From Halorussus sp. MSC15.2 (GTDB lineage Archaea > Halobacteriota > Halobacteria > Halobacteriales > Haladaptataceae): 64,000 bases of DNA. Below the pieces are notes generated by a model that ran no database searches, was not told the DNA's origin, and was given only the letters and a program-made list of their open reading frames with translations. Made by a program: the position numbers and the translations under genes. The stretch covers positions 62,001-126,000 of the forward strand of contig NZ_VSLZ01000005.1 in the NCBI RefSeq assembly GCF_010747475.1. Direction: 5' to 3'. Below, piece by piece: positions 41,239-63,319 of the stretch (the first letter of the stretch is position 1; every line of letters starts with the position of its first letter).

Positions 41239-41245
41239 GCTCAGG

Positions 41246-42526
41246 TCAGATAGTGACGTTCATCGCGCTCTCGGCGTTGCCGATGTGCGGCCCGCCGAGA
41301 ACCGACGAATTACCGTATGACACCACCCCGGCGACGGACTTGAAGCTGGTCCCGGACTCGTAGTAAGTCTCGGTGAATCGCGGCCCGCCGGAGTCACCGC
41401 TGTTACTCGTCGTGTCGGTTTGGAATACGTTGTAGTTGCTATCGACGCAGGTGACCGAGCCGGAGGTGACACCCGTGCGAGCGCCCTGTTTCGTCAGCGA
41501 GGCGCCGTCCTTAATCTTGTCCCAGCCGAGGATGCCGTACACCTCCCAGCCGTTGTTGTAGGTGCCGTCGTCTGCCGCGAACTTGTAGGTGTGGCCGTCG
41601 GTGAACTTGGCTATCGCCGAGTCGTTCGAGCGACCGTTCGAGCTGTTGCATTTGGTCGACTGGCTGGTGAAGTTCTTCTTCAGCGTGTCGCCGCGGGTCC
41701 CGCCTTGCTTGTCGGGGTGGTCGGGGTTGTAGATGTCCTCCTTCTCGTAGCCCTCGTAGTTGTCGTCCACGACGTGTGCCGCGGTTAGCATCACGAAGCC
41801 GTGGTTATCGTGGTAGGCGGGACAGGCGACTGTTCCGGTTGCGATGGCCTCCTTGTCCGAGGTCTCGCCGCCGTACTTGACTTCGACTTGGGCACCGCAC
41901 GGCGTCCCCTTCCCGGAGTAGTCGTAGTCGTAGTGCCACTCGTCGCCGCCGGCCAGCGTGGAGACCTCCTTCTTCTCGAAGGTGACGGGGACGTCCTGTA
42001 CCTGTTCTTCATAGTCGCCTTGTCCGACCGAACCGGACATCGTCGCGGGGGACGCGTCTTTCAGTCGCTCGAAATCGACCTGCGGTTCATCGCCGTCGAA
42101 CGTGACATGCTGGACGACGATGGACTTCTCGCGCTTGTGGCCGTTGACCCTGTCGGTCACTCCGGTCGTGACGTAACCGAGTCCCTTCTCGCCGGTGCAG
42201 TCCGTCCCAAATCGGCTACGGAACTGGGAGAACAGCCGCCGAGACGCCTCGTGAGCGCCCTCGGTCACGGCCCATTCGTCTCGCGGGATGGTGTAGTACA
42301 CCGGCTTACGTTTGGGCTTCTCCTCGCCCGCGAGGACGGCGTCGTGGTTCTCGTGGTGGAGAGCTTTGAGTCGCGGAACCTCGTCTTTCGGGTTGTCGGT
42401 GAGCTGTGCGAGCGTGTCCTGTGACAGGTACTGAAGCGCACTCCCAGAGAGACCGAGGGTCGATAGTGCCTTCAGGAACTGTCGCCGACCGCCGCTTCGG
42501 AGCGTGCGTTTCAGTGTTTTTCTCAT
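41246..42526 (-). CDS. Tat-exported trypsin-like serine protease
   Basis: 426 residues. Twin-arginine signal at the N-terminus (SGGRRQFLKALSTLGLSGSALQ). A region of about 180 residues without recognised domain (likely propeptide) precedes a chymotrypsin-fold domain: His251 in LTAAHVVDD, Asp302 in RSNDSAIAKF, and Ser379 in SGDSGGPRF. Paired cysteines (CGAQ ... CPAY, CNSS, CVDS) suggest disulphides suited to the outside of the cell. Many Asn/Ser residues and a lower acidity than cytosolic neighbours. Probably a secreted endopeptidase. Stands alone, divergent from the lipoprotein gene. Confidence 0.88.
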   Translation of the reverse strand: MRKTLKRTLRSGGRRQFLKALSTLGLSGSALQYLSQDTLAQLTDNPKDEVPRLKALHHENHDAVLAGEEKPKRKPVYYTIPRDEWAVTEGAHEASRRLFSQFRSRFGTDCTGEKGLGYVTTGVTDRVNGHKREKSIVVQHVTFDGDEPQVDFERLKDASPATMSGSVGQGDYEEQVQDVPVTFEKKEVSTLAGGDEWHYDYDYSGKGTPCGAQVEVKYGGETSDKEAIATGTVACPAYHDNHGFVMLTAAHVVDDNYEGYEKEDIYNPDHPDKQGGTRGDTLKKNFTSQSTKCNSSNGRSNDSAIAKFTDGHTYKFAADDGTYNNGWEVYGILGWDKIKDGASLTKQGARTGVTSGSVTCVDSNYNVFQTDTTSNSGDSGGPRFTETYYESGTSFKSVAGVVSYGNSSVLGGPHIGNAESAMNVTI

Positions 42527-42630
42527 AGTGCACTTAGTTAATTTAAATTAGAAATCTATATATTTTACTCTGAGGGAGACTATCGCACCCATCCAGAAAA
42601 AACTTGTCTGTCGGCCAATAACCGTGTTCT

Positions 42631-43167
42631 ATGGTCCCCGAGATAACACGTAGACGTATCACCATTGGACTTACCGGTGCGATAGTCCCCGGAAGCGGGT
42701 GTCTCGGTGCGAGCGAACCGGGGACGACGGACGGTCGAGGAACCGTGACTTGCCCCGACCGGGGCGACGAAAAGGCGGTCTCGTGCGTGACCGACCACCC
42801 GAGGATTGACCTCCGACCGACGATAGCGCCGTTGCGACCGGAGACCACGAATCAGTCGTTCGTGTTCCGGAACCGAATGCGAACGTCCGTGACGGTGAAC
42901 ACCGCCGGAATCGACATTTTCCGACGAGGGGACAGGTCGTGGAAAGAAATCGGTAATCAGAAGCGCAATCTGACCGCGTCGATAGTGAAACCGGGTGACG
43001 CGTTTTACTGGATAGTCAAGTTCCCGGAGTCTCGGGAGAGCGTCCTAATCCGGGACGGGGAAGTCAGGTTCCCGAAGGAAGCGTCAGGGCAGTACGCGGC
43101 CACCATCACCGCGACGGTCGAAGAGGGGCAAAAATTGCAGTGCGGGACGGTGTTCCGCATCGAATAG
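42631..43167 (+). CDS. Exported lipoprotein of unknown function
   Basis: 178 residues. N-terminus PEITRRRITIGLTGAIVPGSGCLG: twin-arginine-like signal and lipobox with Cys24. The mature domain looks like a beta sandwich (NQSFVFRNRMRTSVTVNTAGIDIFRRG, GQYAATITATVEEGQKL) with Cys pairs at TCPDRGD/VSCVTD and a late QCGTVF. Similar in layout to the other small lipoprotein at 8901 but not evidently homologous. Opposite to the protease gene with about 100 bp between; no function assigned. Confidence 0.7.
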   Translation: MVPEITRRRITIGLTGAIVPGSGCLGASEPGTTDGRGTVTCPDRGDEKAVSCVTDHPRIDLRPTIAPLRPETTNQSFVFRNRMRTSVTVNTAGIDIFRRGDRSWKEIGNQKRNLTASIVKPGDAFYWIVKFPESRESVLIRDGEVRFPKEASGQYAATITATVEEGQKLQCGTVFRIE

Positions 43168-43198
43168 AACGGAACGCCGCCGGGACGGTCACTTCGAC

Positions 43199-43606
43199 TT
43201 ACCCGAGGCGGTACGTCTCATCGGTGTCGAGTTCGTCGTCGAGTTCTTCGAGGTGGACGACCTCCTCGGCGTCCTCGCTGGCGTCGAGTTCCTGCTGGAG
43301 TCTGCTGACGTACTCCTTGTACTCCTGCAACTGCTCGCGGAGGTGTTCGGCTTCGAGTTCGAGTCGCTCGTGTTCCCTGACGAAGCTCTTGGGCACCTCC
43401 ACCTTCGGCGGGAACTCGTCACCGACCTCCTCGCCGAGTTCGCTCTCGGGGACGACTTTCACCCGGCCGTCGTGGGCCACCAGCAGGTCCACGTAATCGC
43501 GGAACACCGCCGACAGCGAGAGGTCGCGCTCCTCGGCTATCTCCCGGAGCGTCTCGAAGGAATCCTCGTTGACACGGAAGGAGATAGTTTTGTTCTTGTT
43601 GCCCAT
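43199..43606 (-). CDS. Ribbon-helix-helix protein with coiled-coil tail
   Basis: 135 residues. Residues 1-45 (KNKTISFRVNEDSFETLREIAEERDLSLSAVFRDYVDLL) form a CopG/Arc-type ribbon-helix-helix DNA-binding domain. Residues about 75-115 (EHERLELEAEHLREQLQEYKEYVSRLQQEL) are a leucine-heptad coiled coil, then an acidic tail. Start at 43606 (MGNKNKT) rather than 43624. It is transcribed away from cydAB, 240 bp apart, and could regulate it; such proteins are widespread in haloarchaea. Confidence 0.82.
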   Translation of the reverse strand: MGNKNKTISFRVNEDSFETLREIAEERDLSLSAVFRDYVDLLVAHDGRVKVVPESELGEEVGDEFPPKVEVPKSFVREHERLELEAEHLREQLQEYKEYVSRLQQELDASEDAEEVVHLEELDDELDTDETYRLG

Positions 43607-57093: not shown

Positions 57094-57362
57094 ATGTTCT
57101 TCGGGCCGGAGTCAGCAGAGGACGAGCAAGCCGACCGCGACCTCCGAAAGGGACTCAGCGAGGGGTCGGCGGAGACGCTCAGAGCGTTCGCCCTGCTGGC
57201 GGTACTGATTCAGGCGGCCGTCTTCGCGGTCGCGTCGGAGCGATGCTCCTCGGGTTCCGCGGCCAACGACTGGTCGGCGGCGCGCTGATAGGGGCCGGAC
57301 TCGTCGGACTGGGGGTCGCCGGAGTGGTCTACCGCCGGGTCGAGCGCCGGACCGGAGACTGA
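57094..57362 (+). pseudogene. Small haloarchaeal membrane protein, broken by one missing base
   Basis: From ATG 57094: FFGPESAEDEQADRDLRKGLSEGSAETLRAFALLAVLIQAAVFAVA, then the frame breaks at 57234/57235. One more base gives LGAMLLGFRGQRLVGGALIGAGLVGLGVAGVVYRRVERRTGD, restoring two membrane helices and 89 residues. I recall the pattern as DUF7322 (unchecked). Its stop codon lies in the first 26-bp direct repeat. Confidence 0.7.
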
Positions 57363-57383
57363 CGAACAAGCCTATCTTTCCCG
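57358..57383 (+). repeat. 26-bp direct repeat, left copy, at the edge of an AT-rich island
   Basis: Begins ACTGACGAACAAG and ends TATCTTTCCCG; identical to 58086-58111. Contains the stop codon of the small membrane protein and a copy of the TATA-like CCTATCTTT. Confidence 0.9.
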
Positions 57384-57450
57384 GGAAACGACTCTTAGCT
57401 ATAGAGAGACTCTTCTTCTGTCTTAACGAACCGGATAACAGTACTACTTC

Positions 57451-57786
57451 CTATAGATAGTCAACTATTTCGAGTTCATCTTCGTTGTTGTATTTTATGC
57501 TTAGTTGAACTGGTTTGTCGTATCCGATGAGGTCTTTTTCATCGGTTTTCTCTCCTACCGTTGCTCGTACCCTTGCGCCTGACGTCGGAACATCCGTGAG
57601 TTCCTCCCTCGTAAAATGGTTTCTTGATGTAGAAGCGAGTTCGATAGTTCGTTTGAGTACCCGACCACCATCGGCGTTGAAGATTTCAACAAAAAAACGT
57701 GTGTTTCGAACTGTCAGAATTCCAGACCTCAACTTCGGAGAGTTTGGCCTCACTATCACGTGATGTCCCTTGAGAGAGACAACCAC
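57451..57786 (-). CDS. Orphan protein in the AT-rich island
   Basis: 111 residues from GTG 57786, with TATA-like CGATATTC about 20-25 nt upstream. Mostly beta by pattern: HHVIVRPNSPKLRSGILTVRNTRFFVEIFNADGG, RTIELASTS, ARVRATVGEKTDEKDLIGYDKPVQLSIKYNN. Codon use favours A/T third positions, unlike all neighbours, which marks foreign origin. No signal peptide or membrane helix. I do not recognise the family; it is the only gene-sized frame of the island. Confidence 0.6.
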   Translation of the reverse strand: MVVSLKGHHVIVRPNSPKLRSGILTVRNTRFFVEIFNADGGRVLKRTIELASTSRNHFTREELTDVPTSGARVRATVGEKTDEKDLIGYDKPVQLSIKYNNEDELEIVDYL

Positions 57787-58085
57787 TTATCCCGACAGAG
57801 AATATCGATAAGCAACAGAGGGTGCCGAAACGACGACGGTTCATGCACCTAATGAAATCAGTCTAACTAGTTATTCCTTTCTAAGTGTACTCCTACAGCC
57901 CAACTCGTTTTGGGGGTCAGAACCAGTGTTGTAGCACTTCTAGGCACCCTAACTAGACCAGCACCGAATTTTAATCTAGTTATTTCGATTTATATTGACT
58001 CTTCAGTGTCGTATATTCCTAGTAAACATGGACATCAGTTGAGTGATTAATATGTTCCTAAATCCACCTTCTCAGTAGAGTTCCT
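57787..58085. other. Non-coding part of the AT-rich island
   Basis: About 300 bp of clearly AT-rich DNA without a gene-length frame on either strand. CTAGTTATT occurs twice (about 57868 and 57977). No integrase, tRNA or clear terminal inverted repeats seen. Confidence 0.6.
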
Positions 58086-58111
58086 ACTGACGAACAAGCC
58101 TATCTTTCCCG
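58086..58111 (+). repeat. 26-bp direct repeat, right copy, at the edge of the AT-rich island
   Basis: Identical to 57358-57383; the bases beyond each copy differ. This copy provides the promoter of the next operon. Confidence 0.9.
58098..58106 (+). promoter_or_regulatory. TATA-like promoter within the right direct repeat
   Basis: CCTATCTTT centred 29 nt before ATG 58131. The same element occurs in the left repeat, where no gene follows. Confidence 0.45.
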
Positions 58112-58130: not shown

Positions 58131-58409
58131 ATGGACGACCGCCTCGAAAGCTTCCTCCGCTCCAAGATTCGGTCCGCCGGGCGGCAGGTCGCCGACGCCA
58201 AGCGGGCCTACGCCAACGGCCGCCGGGCCGCGCTCGCGGACCTCCCGCAGGACGACGACGGGAGGGCCAGAATCGTCTGCCGACGGTACGCCGAGCGCCG
58301 GGCAGTCGAACTCGACTCCGAGGCCCGGCCCGCTTGCTTCGACCCGGACCACCCCGACTGCGAGGGGTGCCTCCGAGACGTGCGCGACGGACGCGTCGAG
58401 ACGTGGTGA
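58131..58409 (+). CDS. Conserved haloarchaeal protein of unknown function
   Basis: 92 residues. Basic helical first half (DDRLESFLRSKIRSAGRQVADAKRAYANGRRAA) and a cysteine-containing end CRRYAERRAVELDSEARPACFDPDHPDCEGCLRDVRDG with four Cys and a His able to bind zinc. I believe it is DUF7091, not searched. One base separates its stop from the next ATG, so it is in one operon with the nucleotidyltransferase. Confidence 0.78.
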   Translation: MDDRLESFLRSKIRSAGRQVADAKRAYANGRRAALADLPQDDDGRARIVCRRYAERRAVELDSEARPACFDPDHPDCEGCLRDVRDGRVETW

Positions 58410-58410
58410 G

Positions 58411-59445
58411 ATGGCCGGGAACACCGACGCCCTCGACCGGCCGGTCGTCGCGCTCGTGATGGCAGGCGGCACCGGGACGCGCCTCTACCCCGCCAGCAGG
58501 TCGGACCGACCCAAGCAGTTCCTCTCGCTCGGCGGCGCGAGCGGTGACGCTTCGCTCCTCCAACGGACCGTCTCGCGGGTCGGGTTCGCGGACGAGGTGT
58601 ACGTCTCGACCGGGGCGGACCACGCCGAGCGCGTCCGCGCGGACGTGCCCGAGGCGGGCGTGCTCGTGGAACCCGCGGCGAAGGACACCGGTCCGGCGCT
58701 GGTCTACGCCGCCCACCGAATCCGCGAACAGGTCGGCGAGTGCGTCCTGCTCTGCGTGCCGAGCGACCACCTCGTCGCCGGGGCGTTCGAGTCGGCCGCC
58801 GCGACCGCGCTCCGGGGTGCAGTCGAAACGGAGGGGCTGGTCGCGTTCGGCGTCGAACCCTCTCGGCCCGCCACGGGATACGGTTACATCGAGCCGAAAG
58901 ACAGGGGTCCTACGTGGGCCGAAATCGAGCAGTTCCGAGAGAAGCCCGACGCGGAAACTGCACGCCGATTCGTGGAGCAGGGTTTCTACTGGAACGCCGG
59001 ACTGTTCGCGTGGACGCCCGAGAGTCTGCTTCGGGAGGCCCGCGACTCGCCGCTGGCTCCGCTCGTGGAGGCGCTGGACGAGGGCTATCCCGAGCGCGGG
59101 TTCCGCGAGGTCGAGGAGGTCAGCATCGACTACGCCGTGATGGAACGCACCGACGACGCCTACGTCGTGCCCGCCGACTTCGAGTGGGACGACGTGGGCG
59201 CGTGGGACGCCATCGAGCGCGTCGTCGAACCCGACGACGACGGAAACGCGGTTCTGGGAGACGCCCTCCTCCTCGACGCCGAAGACAACGTCGTCGCCAC
59301 CGACGGAGAGACGCACGTCAGCGCCGTCGGCGTCGAGGGGTTGGTCGTCGCGGCGTACGACGACCGGGTGCTGGTCGTGCCGAAAGACGACGCACAGCGA
59401 GTCCGCGAGGTCGTGGCGAAACTGCGCGAGCAGGACCTGTTCTGA
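58411..59445 (+). CDS. Mannose-1-phosphate guanylyltransferase (GDP-mannose synthesis)
   Basis: 344 residues. Nucleotidyltransferase signature VMAGGTGTRLYPASRSDRPKQFLSLGG at residues 14-38 (the Gly-rich loop and the Lys that contacts phosphate), plus VPSDHLVAGAF, GYGYIEPK, EKPDAETARRFVEQGFYWNAGLFAW and DYAVMER. Matches the GDP-forming ManC family without the C-terminal isomerase domain. Supplies GDP-mannose for glycosylation or mannosylglycerate. Confidence 0.92.
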   Translation: MAGNTDALDRPVVALVMAGGTGTRLYPASRSDRPKQFLSLGGASGDASLLQRTVSRVGFADEVYVSTGADHAERVRADVPEAGVLVEPAAKDTGPALVYAAHRIREQVGECVLLCVPSDHLVAGAFESAAATALRGAVETEGLVAFGVEPSRPATGYGYIEPKDRGPTWAEIEQFREKPDAETARRFVEQGFYWNAGLFAWTPESLLREARDSPLAPLVEALDEGYPERGFREVEEVSIDYAVMERTDDAYVVPADFEWDDVGAWDAIERVVEPDDDGNAVLGDALLLDAEDNVVATDGETHVSAVGVEGLVVAAYDDRVLVVPKDDAQRVREVVAKLREQDLF

Positions 59446-59758: not shown

Positions 59759-59864
59759 ACCGAGACTCCGCAAGCCGACTCGCCGGGCGAGACGCGCGTG
59801 AGGCCCAGTCGCCACAAGTCCCGTTCCGAGCGCTCAGGTTCGGCCCCTTGATTGCTCTCCGAAG

Positions 59865-59876
59865 GCTATAAAATAC
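59865..59876 (+). promoter_or_regulatory. Strong TATA element in a noncoding stretch
   Basis: GCTATAAAATAC is one of the best TATA matches in the window; the predicted start near 59898 precedes no recognised ORF until 59952. It may add a longer transcript to the transducer operon or drive an unseen small RNA. Confidence 0.35.
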
Positions 59877-59920
59877 GAGCTGGGTTCGACGCATCTTAAT
59901 ACTGATAATCCCACCCATAA

Positions 59921-59928
59921 GTTTATAG
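59921..59928 (+). promoter_or_regulatory. TATA box for the transducer operon leader ORF
   Basis: GTTTATAG centred 27 nt upstream of ATG 59952, the standard leaderless spacing. Confidence 0.5.
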
Positions 59929-59951
59929 AAATAGTTTGAGACCGGTTCCGT

Positions 59952-60110
59952 ATGTGGTTTAGTAAGCTGATACTGGGAACCATTAGAAGAAATTCACTAG
60001 GAAGAGACACCGTTATATCACGGCGTATGTCCGCGTATCAGCGCCCTCGGGACAGTGAAGGGGCGAACTGGAACTGCGGCGTTCACGAACGGCACCCGAC
60101 GATAACATGA
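59952..60110 (+). CDS. Possible 52-residue leader protein of the transducer operon
   Basis: Starts MWFSKLILGTIRRNSLGR and is basic and hydrophilic further on. Its TGA overlaps the next ATG (ATGA at 60107-60110), and its ATG lies 27 nt after a TATA box. These two signals together favour a real, translated frame that couples to the membrane protein gene. Codon use is less GC-biased than in the next gene, and no family is recognised, so it could also be a remnant of a longer gene. Confidence 0.4.
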   Translation: MWFSKLILGTIRRNSLGRDTVISRRMSAYQRPRDSEGANWNCGVHERHPTIT

Positions 60111-60385
60111 TAGCTGGTCTACAACCACTGGAGGTCGTCGGGTTAGTCGTCAGTCTAGTCGGACTAATACCGGTGGTCTTGCAGTACAGAGCGGAGTCGA
60201 AGTGGTTCACGTGGGGATATATCCTCTTAGTAGTCGGAATGGTAGCGACGAATTTGGAGAACATCGTACTCGCTGGGTTCTTGGATATCGTCGAACACGT
60301 GGTCGGCGTCGGTGCCGCGGGCGTCGTCTTCCTCGCGGCCGCCTGCCTCCGTAGAAAGCAAGTCATCGAAGCGGAGGAGACGTAA
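60107..60385 (+). CDS. Small membrane protein coupled to the transducer
   Basis: 92 residues with three predicted membrane helices: [42 protein letters not shown] and [17 protein letters not shown], then a basic end [11 protein letters not shown]. Its stop is one base before the transducer ATG. It resembles short haloarchaeal three-helix proteins (I recall DUF7521, unchecked). Its position suggests it is the sensory or docking partner of the transducer (inference). Confidence 0.68.
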
Positions 60386-60386
60386 G

Positions 60387-62003
60387 ATGGTCGGACTCAA
60401 TCCGCTCTTCGACGCTATCGGCGCCCTCGGCTTCGTCGGCGCGGTGGTGGTCGGATGGTTGAACTACCGCGACAGCGAGGTCGAATCGGCGTTCTGGATG
60501 ACGTTCACCTTCGCCTCGGTGTTGGGAACGACGTGGACGGTGAGCCTCATGTTGGAGAAGGCGGGCATCTACGAAGAGGTGACCAACTTGGCGACTGGTC
60601 CCCTCATGACCGCAACTGTCGCCGTGTTCGCAATCGGCGGTACCGCGACGCTCGCCGTCGTCGAGGACATGAAGGACGTCGTCGAGGAAGCGAAACAGGA
60701 ACGTCAGAGCGCCGAAAAAGCCAAGCAGAAGGCGGAGGAACAGCGCGAGCAGGCCGAGGAGTCCAAACAACAGGCAGAAGAGGCCCGACAGGAGGCGAAA
60801 CGACGCGAGGAGGAACTCGAATCGTTCACCCGAGCGCTCGAACAGAAGGCCGAGGAGTTCGGCGGTATCATGGAGGACGCGGCGGCGGGCGACCTCACCC
60901 AGCGCATGGACCCGGAGAGTGAGAGCGAGTCGCTGGAGCGGATAGCGAGACAGTTCAACGAGATGATGACCGAACTCGAACGGACCGTCGGTCGCGTCCA
61001 ACAGTTCGCGGTCGAGGTGTCCGACGCCAGCGACGAGGCGAGCGTCGGCACGCAGGAAGTCGAGAACGCGAGCGAGGAGGTGGCCAAGTCGGTCGAGGAC
61101 ATCTCGGCGGGCGCTGCCGAGCAGTCCGAACACGTCGACGAGGTCACGAACGAGATGAGCACGCTCTCGGCGACCATCGAAGAGGTCGCGGCGTCGGCCG
61201 ACGAAGTCGCGGCGCTGTCCGAGCAAGCCGCCGAGAAGGGTGCCGAGGGTCGGAAACTCTCGGGCGAGGCGATGGACGAGATGGACCGCATCGAGGAGAC
61301 CACCGTCGAGACCGTCGAGACCGTCGACAGACTGGACGAGGAGATGTCTGAAATCGGTGAAATCGTGGGCGTAATCGACGACATCGCCGAGCAGACGAAC
61401 GTACTGGCGCTCAACGCCTCCATCGAGGCCGCTCGTGCGGGCGAGGCCGGCGAAGGGTTCGCGGTCGTCGCCAACGAGGTGAAGGACCTCGCGGAGGAGA
61501 CCCGCGACGCGACCCAAGAGATAAGCGGTCTCATCGACCAGGTGCAGGACTCGACGGCAGCGACGGTCGAAGAGATGCAGGAGATGCGTGAACGAGTCGA
61601 TTCGGGCACGGAGACTATCGACGAGGGACTGGGAGTGCTCGAAGAGGTAGTCGAGGACGTCGAGGAGGCCAACACCGGCATCCAAGAGATTCACGAGGCG
61701 ACCGAGGACCAAGCGACCTCGACCGAGGAGGTCGTCGCGATGACGAGCGAAGTCGCGAGCATAAGCGAGGAGACCTCCGCCGAGGCCGAAACCGTCTCGG
61801 CCGCCGCCGAACAACAGGCGGCGTCCATCAGTCAGGTCACGAGCGAAGTCGAGGCTCTCTCCGAGAAGTCGAACGAACTCCACGCGCTCCTCGGTCGGTT
61901 CGAGGTGTCTACCGACGGAACGGAGGTCTCGCCCGACGCCGCGGAGGGCAGCGAGCGCTCGCTCGCCGCCGACGGTAACGGGTTCGGACGGGCCGACGAA
62001 TGA
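60387..62003 (+). CDS. Halobacterial transducer (methyl-accepting chemotaxis protein)
   Basis: 538 residues. Three short membrane helices within the first 95 residues ([61 protein letters not shown]) with no extracellular sensor domain. Then a long charged coiled coil (about 100-165), a HAMP-like segment [31 protein letters not shown], and the MCP signalling domain with the conserved hairpin tip [43 protein letters not shown]. Glu/Gln pairs for methylation are present. ATG 60387 lies one base after the preceding stop. Confidence 0.92.
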
Positions 62004-62434
62004 GCGCCGCCGAGTCCGACGCCGGAGCGGACGGGGAGTCGCTCACGGTACTGGAGTTCGCCTTCGGGTCCCAGCGCTACTGTATGCGAATCGAGCGGGT
62101 CGTCGAAATCGTCCGAAAAGGGTCGGTCACGCCGCTGCCGAACACCCCGCCGCACGTCGAGGGCGTCATGGACCTGCGCGGCGAAACCACCAGACTCGTC
62201 GACCCGACGCGACTGTTGGACGTCGACGAAGACGGGGCGAAGGAGATGGTCTTGGTACTCGAGAGCGGCGACGAGGGGCCGGTCGGATGGCTCGTTGGTG
62301 ATGTGCACCGCGTGCGGCGTGTGACCACTGACGACCTCGACGAGACAGTCGGAAGCGGTCAGATAAAGGGCGTGTTCACCGACGGTGACCACGTCGTCTG
62401 GATAGACCCCGACGACGCGCTCTCGTCGCGGTGA
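62000..62434 (+). CDS. cheW: CheW-type coupling protein
   Basis: 144 residues with the CheW fold: [58 protein letters not shown] and [18 protein letters not shown]. It links transducers to the CheA kinase. ATG overlaps the transducer stop (ATGA). It is separate from the usual che cluster, so this receptor brings its own adaptor. Confidence 0.9.
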
Positions 62435-62533
62435 CTATCGGTCCCGCGACTCCCTCGTTTCGATAGCCGCCGAGTCGAAGACCGGCGTCGCGGCGTCCGG
62501 AAGAATCTCGTTCTCGTTGCGGGGGTCGCGACG

Positions 62534-63319
62534 TTAGCTCCGGAGGCGGCCACCGTCCACGGGGACGGCCGCGCCGTTGACGAAACTCGCGCGTTCGCTG
62601 GAGAGGAAGACCACGGTATCGCCGAGTTCGCGCGGGTCGCCCACGCGGTCGAGCGGGATGTCGTCGGCCCACGCGGCCAGTCCCTCGTCGTAGGTGTCGT
62701 ACTCGCCGCGTTCGACCGCGGCCTCGACGAGTTCCTGAATCCGGGGCGTCTCGTGCGCGCCGGGGAGGACCGCGTTGACCCGAATGTCGGGTGCGAACTC
62801 GCGGGCCTGCGTCTTCATCAGCCCGATGACGCCGCGCCGGACCGCGTTCGAGAGGACCAGTCCGTCGATGGCCTCCCGGACGCTGGTCGAGGTGACGTTG
62901 ACGATAGTCCCAGCGTCGCTCTCGGCGAGGTGCGGGTGGGCGGCCTTGGTCAACCAGACCGCGCTCATCACCAGCAGGTCGTAGGCCTCGTACCAGTCGC
63001 GCTCGGTCGTGTCGAGGAACGGCCCGCTGGGCGGGCCGCCCGCCGAGGTGACGACGTGGTCCAGACCGCCGAACTCGGAGACGGTGGCATCGACCAGTGC
63101 CTCGATTTCGTCGGGGTCGGTGATGTCGGTCTGGACCGCCACCACGTCGCCGTCGCCCGCGGCGTCGATTTCCTCCTTGGCGTCCTCCAACTGCTCCTCG
63201 CCGCGGGCGCAGATGGCGACGTTCGCGCCTTCGGCCGCGAGCGCCTTCGCGGAGGCCCGACCGAGACCGCTCGAACTCGCCGTTACCAGTGCCGAGTTAC
63301 CGTCTAATCCGAGGTCCAT
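62534..63319 (-). CDS. Short-chain dehydrogenase/reductase without the usual YxxxK
   Basis: 261 residues. Rossmann loop TASSSGLGRASAKAL, DITDPDEIEAL, TSAGGPPSGPF (NNAG equivalent), catalytic Ser region IVNVTSTSVREAIDGL. The Tyr-x-x-x-Lys place reads LSNAVRRGVIGLMKT, with Asn and Arg instead. Other SDR proteins with LSNxxR exist, so this may be a real subfamily with altered chemistry. Start 63319 (MDLGLDGNSALVTASSSG). Substrate unknown. Confidence 0.85.
   Translation of the reverse strand: MDLGLDGNSALVTASSSGLGRASAKALAAEGANVAICARGEEQLEDAKEEIDAAGDGDVVAVQTDITDPDEIEALVDATVSEFGGLDHVVTSAGGPPSGPFLDTTERDWYEAYDLLVMSAVWLTKAAHPHLAESDAGTIVNVTSTSVREAIDGLVLSNAVRRGVIGLMKTQAREFAPDIRVNAVLPGAHETPRIQELVEAAVERGEYDTYDEGLAAWADDIPLDRVGDPRELGDTVVFLSSERASFVNGAAVPVDGGRLRS

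Follow-up and report, generated by a model that had tools for sequence, protein, structure and literature searches.

A small lipoprotein gene inserted between two copies of a likely operon promoter in Halorussus sp. MSC15.2

The window analysed here is a stretch of 64,000 nucleotides from the genome of Halorussus sp. MSC15.2, and all positions given without a contig label refer to it. Towards its right-hand end, an AT-rich island bounded by direct repeats lies between a small membrane-protein gene and an operon that starts at 58131. The features of the locus are the following:

57094–57362, plus strand: gene for a small membrane protein, with a stop codon that overlaps the insertion target; a continuous frame needs a frame change near 57235, where there is one base fewer than in the nearest relative, G004
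57358–57383, plus strand: left repeat copy, fusing the membrane-protein stop codon to the likely promoter block; single copy in G004
57384–58085, no strand: inserted AT-rich DNA of 702 bp, 43% GC, missing at the DNA level from every other genome of the genus
57451–57844, minus strand: small Tat/lipobox lipoprotein gene (MNRRRF...SGC; GISGCLS), about 130 aa across a frameshift, with homologues
57691–57697, no strand: A7 homopolymer with one surplus base relative to the homologous frame, which splits the lipoprotein ORF into ORFs of 52 aa and 111 aa
57845–58085, no strand: AT-rich stretch upstream of the lipoprotein gene, with no convincing gene and no structured RNA matched in Rfam
58086–58111, plus strand: right repeat copy, BRE/TATA-like, about 25–40 bp before the ATG; single-copy and conserved ahead of DUF7091 genus-wide
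58131–58409, plus strand: DUF7091 gene, first gene of the operon (Pfam PF23367, E 1e-43)
58411–59445, plus strand: mannose-1-phosphate guanylyltransferase-like gene, second gene of the operon (NCBIfam TIGR01479, under the equivalog cut-off)

The 26-bp direct repeat ACTGACGAACAAGCCTATCTTTCCCG is present in two perfect copies, at 57358–57383 and 58086–58111, and these are the only two in the 4.4-Mb genome when up to three mismatches are allowed. By chance, about 7e-6 pairs of such length less than 1 kb apart would be expected per genome. A scan of the window revealed no other exact pair of at least 20 bp spaced within 5 kb, and in 233 kb of the contig exact pairs of at least 20 bp were otherwise limited to one 20-bp pair and an array at the lpd gene (C5:223–231 kb). 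Between the repeats, GC drops to 0.40–0.47 from about 0.68 outside, the surrounding region having 65–70% GC. The description in an earlier note of two identical 26-bp repeats around about 700 bp of AT-rich DNA is thus confirmed. An assembly duplication was rejected as the origin of the repeats, since foreign DNA lies between the copies and relatives have an empty site. We also observed a 12-bp palindrome, TTTCCCGGGAAA, at 57378–57389, which is formed by the left junction from the end of the repeat and the start of the island.

In the nearest relative, G004, whose flanks are 93–95% identical, the island is absent and a single repeat copy joins the two sides: the membrane-protein gene runs with its stop codon directly into this copy, after which the DUF7091 gene follows. 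The same junction of the membrane-gene stop with ACGAACA, again with no island, was found in G008, G015 and G005. The island had earlier been taken for an insertion, and the arrangement predicted for its excised form is indeed the state of G004, G008, G015 and G005; the proposed check for empty sites in relatives yielded an exact single-copy site in G004. The pattern that would have spoken against an insertion, the same island in all relatives with no repeats, is not what the genus presents, as the island DNA occurs in the genome of the window (G000) alone. In the tree built from three flanking genes, G000 is a tip beside G004, so the filled state is the derived one. Divergence from G004 is alike on both flanks of the island; therefore, any donor tract would be short, and the flanks themselves look vertically inherited. 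Since G004 has the empty site and the repeat core is single-copy across the genus, the comparison identifies the island as a recent insertion specific to this lineage, which duplicated a block in promoter position.

What was duplicated is best seen in the relatives. Ten other members of the genus each have a single match to ACGAACARRCCTATCTTTCC (no more than two mismatches), directly ahead of the DUF7091 start codon, and further diverged copies of the repeat core also lie upstream of DUF7091 in relatives; there, the core was seen only as the DUF7091 promoter and never duplicated. In Haloferax volcanii, 72% of the protein-coding transcripts are leaderless, and the motifs proposed are CGAAA for the BRE and TTWT for the TATA element (PMC4983044). 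The position of the repeat fits the BRE/TATA of leaderless haloarchaeal transcripts. Its conservation and position together indicate that the repeat is likely the promoter of the 58131 operon. The right copy is still at its original distance from the DUF7091 gene, and the expression of the operon should therefore have been preserved after the insertion. The earlier proposal that the repeat carries the promoter of this operon and kept it expressed is, in this way, supported as likely by the conserved single-copy block and the unchanged spacing. The left copy would now be an orphan promoter copy, facing into the island and presumably idle.

The lipoprotein encoded in the island shows 52% identity to its relative in G265, 47–48% to that in G017 and 38% to that in G015. 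R3, R4, G21 and C22 are invariant in the four relatives, i.e., the RR motif and the lipobox cysteine are present. The homologues in G265, G017 and G015 support the joined lipoprotein frame, and the gene is not the orphan that it was first taken for. The subfamily is rare: close members were found in four of about 540 genomes (G000, G265, G017 and G015), the search having covered 392 genomes of the order and 170 of the family of G265, two sets that overlap. No Pfam or PHROGs match was obtained for the lipoprotein, and no NCBIfam match above the cut-off for its G265 relative, while a protein scan of genome contigs gave one weak match (37%), in a MAG. A single-sequence structure prediction for the lipoprotein domain returned beta strands with low confidence (pLDDT 58.6).

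The frameshift at the A7 run is possibly a sequencing indel, and the view of the island as a decayed element loses ground, for it rests on this frameshift. When compared to G004, 17 of the 134 long ORFs of the contig are shifted, many of them missing one G or C; in the reverse test, 11 of 131 ORFs are shifted, partly at identical sites. Upstream of the island, the LysE-type gene (56450) and the membrane-protein gene (57235) are each split by a missing single base versus G004, which, given the similar cases elsewhere in the contig, suggests assembly indels.

Among relatives, different genes occupy the slot that separates the LysE or membrane gene from the DUF7091 promoter. G006 and G011 have an alpha-amylase-like gene there, and G003 has a transporter-like gene (labels read by eye); in G017, a toxin-antitoxin-like pair (also by eye) shares the slot with a membrane protein and with a lipoprotein belonging to our subfamily; in other relatives it is empty. 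Judged by these contents, the region upstream of DUF7091 is a hotspot of gene-content change. The lipoprotein gene of G017 has the same orientation as that of G000 and adjoins the same promoter, with no second repeat, and by eye the two cassettes have no common ends. As the lipoprotein subfamily is so rare, it appears unlikely that the two came to the same slot by independent random insertions, and the pattern suggests that alleles of this slot have undergone exchange.

Other differences from G004 were noticed along the contig. Just downstream of the DUF7091 operon, a 2.8-kb block (59759–62537) that is absent in G004 carries genes for a small membrane protein, a methyl-accepting transducer and a CheW-like protein, with no flanking repeat. 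At 41239–43199, a segment of 1.96 kb missing in G004 has an almost clean junction (a 6-base gap in G004) and may be an insertion sequence. Outside the window, an array of tandem AT-richer cassettes occupies C5:223,300–230,900 (loci L080 and L081), where lpd ends; its cargo comprises two ABC-transporter-like pairs, a Cys-rich protein and a Tat-type exported protein. Between the cassettes lie copies of the lpd 3′ end, one of 26 bp and one of 239 bp. No integrase is evident in the array, and the array is missing in G004. The displaced partial lpd copy agrees with G004 at 225 of 239 positions and the resident lpd end at 217 of 239, while the resident end agrees with G007 and G010 at 223 of 239. 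This fits the import of the resident end together with a cassette and its donor anchor.

By analogy with the lpd cassettes, which are recombinase-less and bear duplicates of their anchor, we tentatively favour an additive integration at the promoter, mediated by short homology or by repair, and put its probability a little below even. After the split from the nearest sequenced relative, the lineage would have gained the 702-bp AT-rich fragment with the rare lipoprotein gene from a related haloarchaeon in which, as in G017, this gene lay upstream of the same promoter. Pairing would have occurred via the short shared promoter sequence with no dedicated recombinase, and joining either by a Campbell-like single crossover of a circularised or end-joined fragment or by microhomology-mediated repair; microhomology-mediated end joining is used by Haloferax (PMC7776575). 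The fragment would thereby be flanked by two 26-bp promoter copies, of which the left is idle and the right is at its original distance from the ATG. The G017 relative of the rare lipoprotein, in the same slot and orientation, and the hotspot character of the slot argue for this route, and a conserved anchor is indeed duplicated beside foreign DNA, as expected for homology-anchored acquisition. Against it stands the identity of the copies over all 26 bp, including the ACTG from the end of the membrane gene. A target-site duplication would predict such identity directly, whereas the promoter of a foreign donor would need a chance match or a close relative as its source. The comparison gave no donor whose lipoprotein is nearly identical, that of G017 being no closer than that of G265, and 26 bp is a short stretch for ordinary homologous recombination.

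Perfectly identical copies would also result from a non-homologous capture, in which a staggered double-strand break at the promoter with long overhangs would have been filled in and closed around a stray fragment, leaving a one-off target duplication. We consider this unlikely, though worth keeping in mind. It agrees with the lack of a recombinase in the island, which contains only the lipoprotein gene and small ORFs (as the earlier note rightly stated), and with the lack of terminal inverted repeats, the best end-to-end match being 7 bp, a length equalled in 80% of shuffles. It also agrees with the comparison of 233 kb with G004, where no second insertion with such a clean signature was detected and the lpd array, the one other event, is different. 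Yet overhangs of 26 nt would be long, and the presence of a relative of the rare gene in the same slot of G017 would be left unexplained.

A site-specific integrative element, non-autonomous or decayed, would see the 26-bp promoter serve as the att site and the integrase act in trans. This was the explanation first proposed, and perfect flanking repeats (attL/attR) with an exact empty site (attB) are what it predicts; it would also account for two lipoprotein cassettes at one site, in G000 and G017. We now hold it to be improbable. The insert has no integrase and no recognisable element ends; the repeat core was found in no viral contig and, in relatives, only as the unduplicated DUF7091 promoter; the suggested check of the island and its protein against haloarchaeal viruses and plasmids gave no match by DNA, protein, profile or PHROGs. 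Moreover, G017 carries its relative of the cargo in the same slot with no left repeat, and its cassette shares no ends with that of G000 by eye.

A length of 26 bp had been thought too long for a transposase target duplication, which does not hold in general: in the IS1202 group, these duplications are 16–28 bp (PMC10132070). Since our perfect repeats are inside this range, a non-autonomous transposon of the IS1202-group type can be envisaged, but we rate it as quite improbable, as the insert has neither terminal inverted repeats nor TGT...ACA ends, and no further copy of the island was found elsewhere in the genome or in 391 other genomes of the order. Very improbable in our estimate is a class of recombinase-less haloarchaeal cassettes whose trans-acting enzyme would target BRE/TATA blocks and duplicate 26 bp, so that the operon would always keep its promoter, G000 and G017 then representing two independent insertions at the same promoter. 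Least credible is an ancestral island lost from G004 and the other relatives by recombination between the repeats, for, while direct repeats ease precise loss and G017 has a related gene in the slot, several precise losses would be needed to give G004, G008, G015 and G005 a common island-free junction, G000 is a tip lineage, and the left copy, presumably unconstrained, shows no decay.

Taken together, the island seems to be a gene gained once, at a site that changes often, and not a new kind of mobile element. It offers a clean case of a single gene slotted beside an archaeal operon, apparently without silencing it, by the copying of a promoter, and it identifies the DUF7091 upstream region as a hotspot of gene exchange. 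If short promoter homology suffices for such integration, foreign genes that enter haloarchaea would naturally settle at promoters.

Small Tat lipoproteins with a lipobox are a known haloarchaeal kind, and the cargo resembles them in its RR motif and lipobox cysteine but differs in belonging to a very rare subfamily with no Pfam match. Integrative elements of tyrosine integrases have att direct repeats, and the perfect repeats described here are likewise of att size and reconstitute the function of the target; in contrast to such elements, there is no integrase, the target is neither a tRNA gene nor a gene 3′ end, and the repeat is in no viral contig. Insertion sequences of the IS1202 group share a flanking direct repeat of like length, whereas here transposase, inverted repeats and TGT/ACA ends are lacking and there is one copy. 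Two papers (PMC3240628, PMC5361080) name homology-facilitated illegitimate recombination and additive displacement as routes of gene acquisition. Such acquisition likewise places a foreign gene beside a conserved anchor and needs no recombinase gene; what sets the present case apart is that the anchor is only 26 bp of an archaeal promoter and that its two copies are identical.
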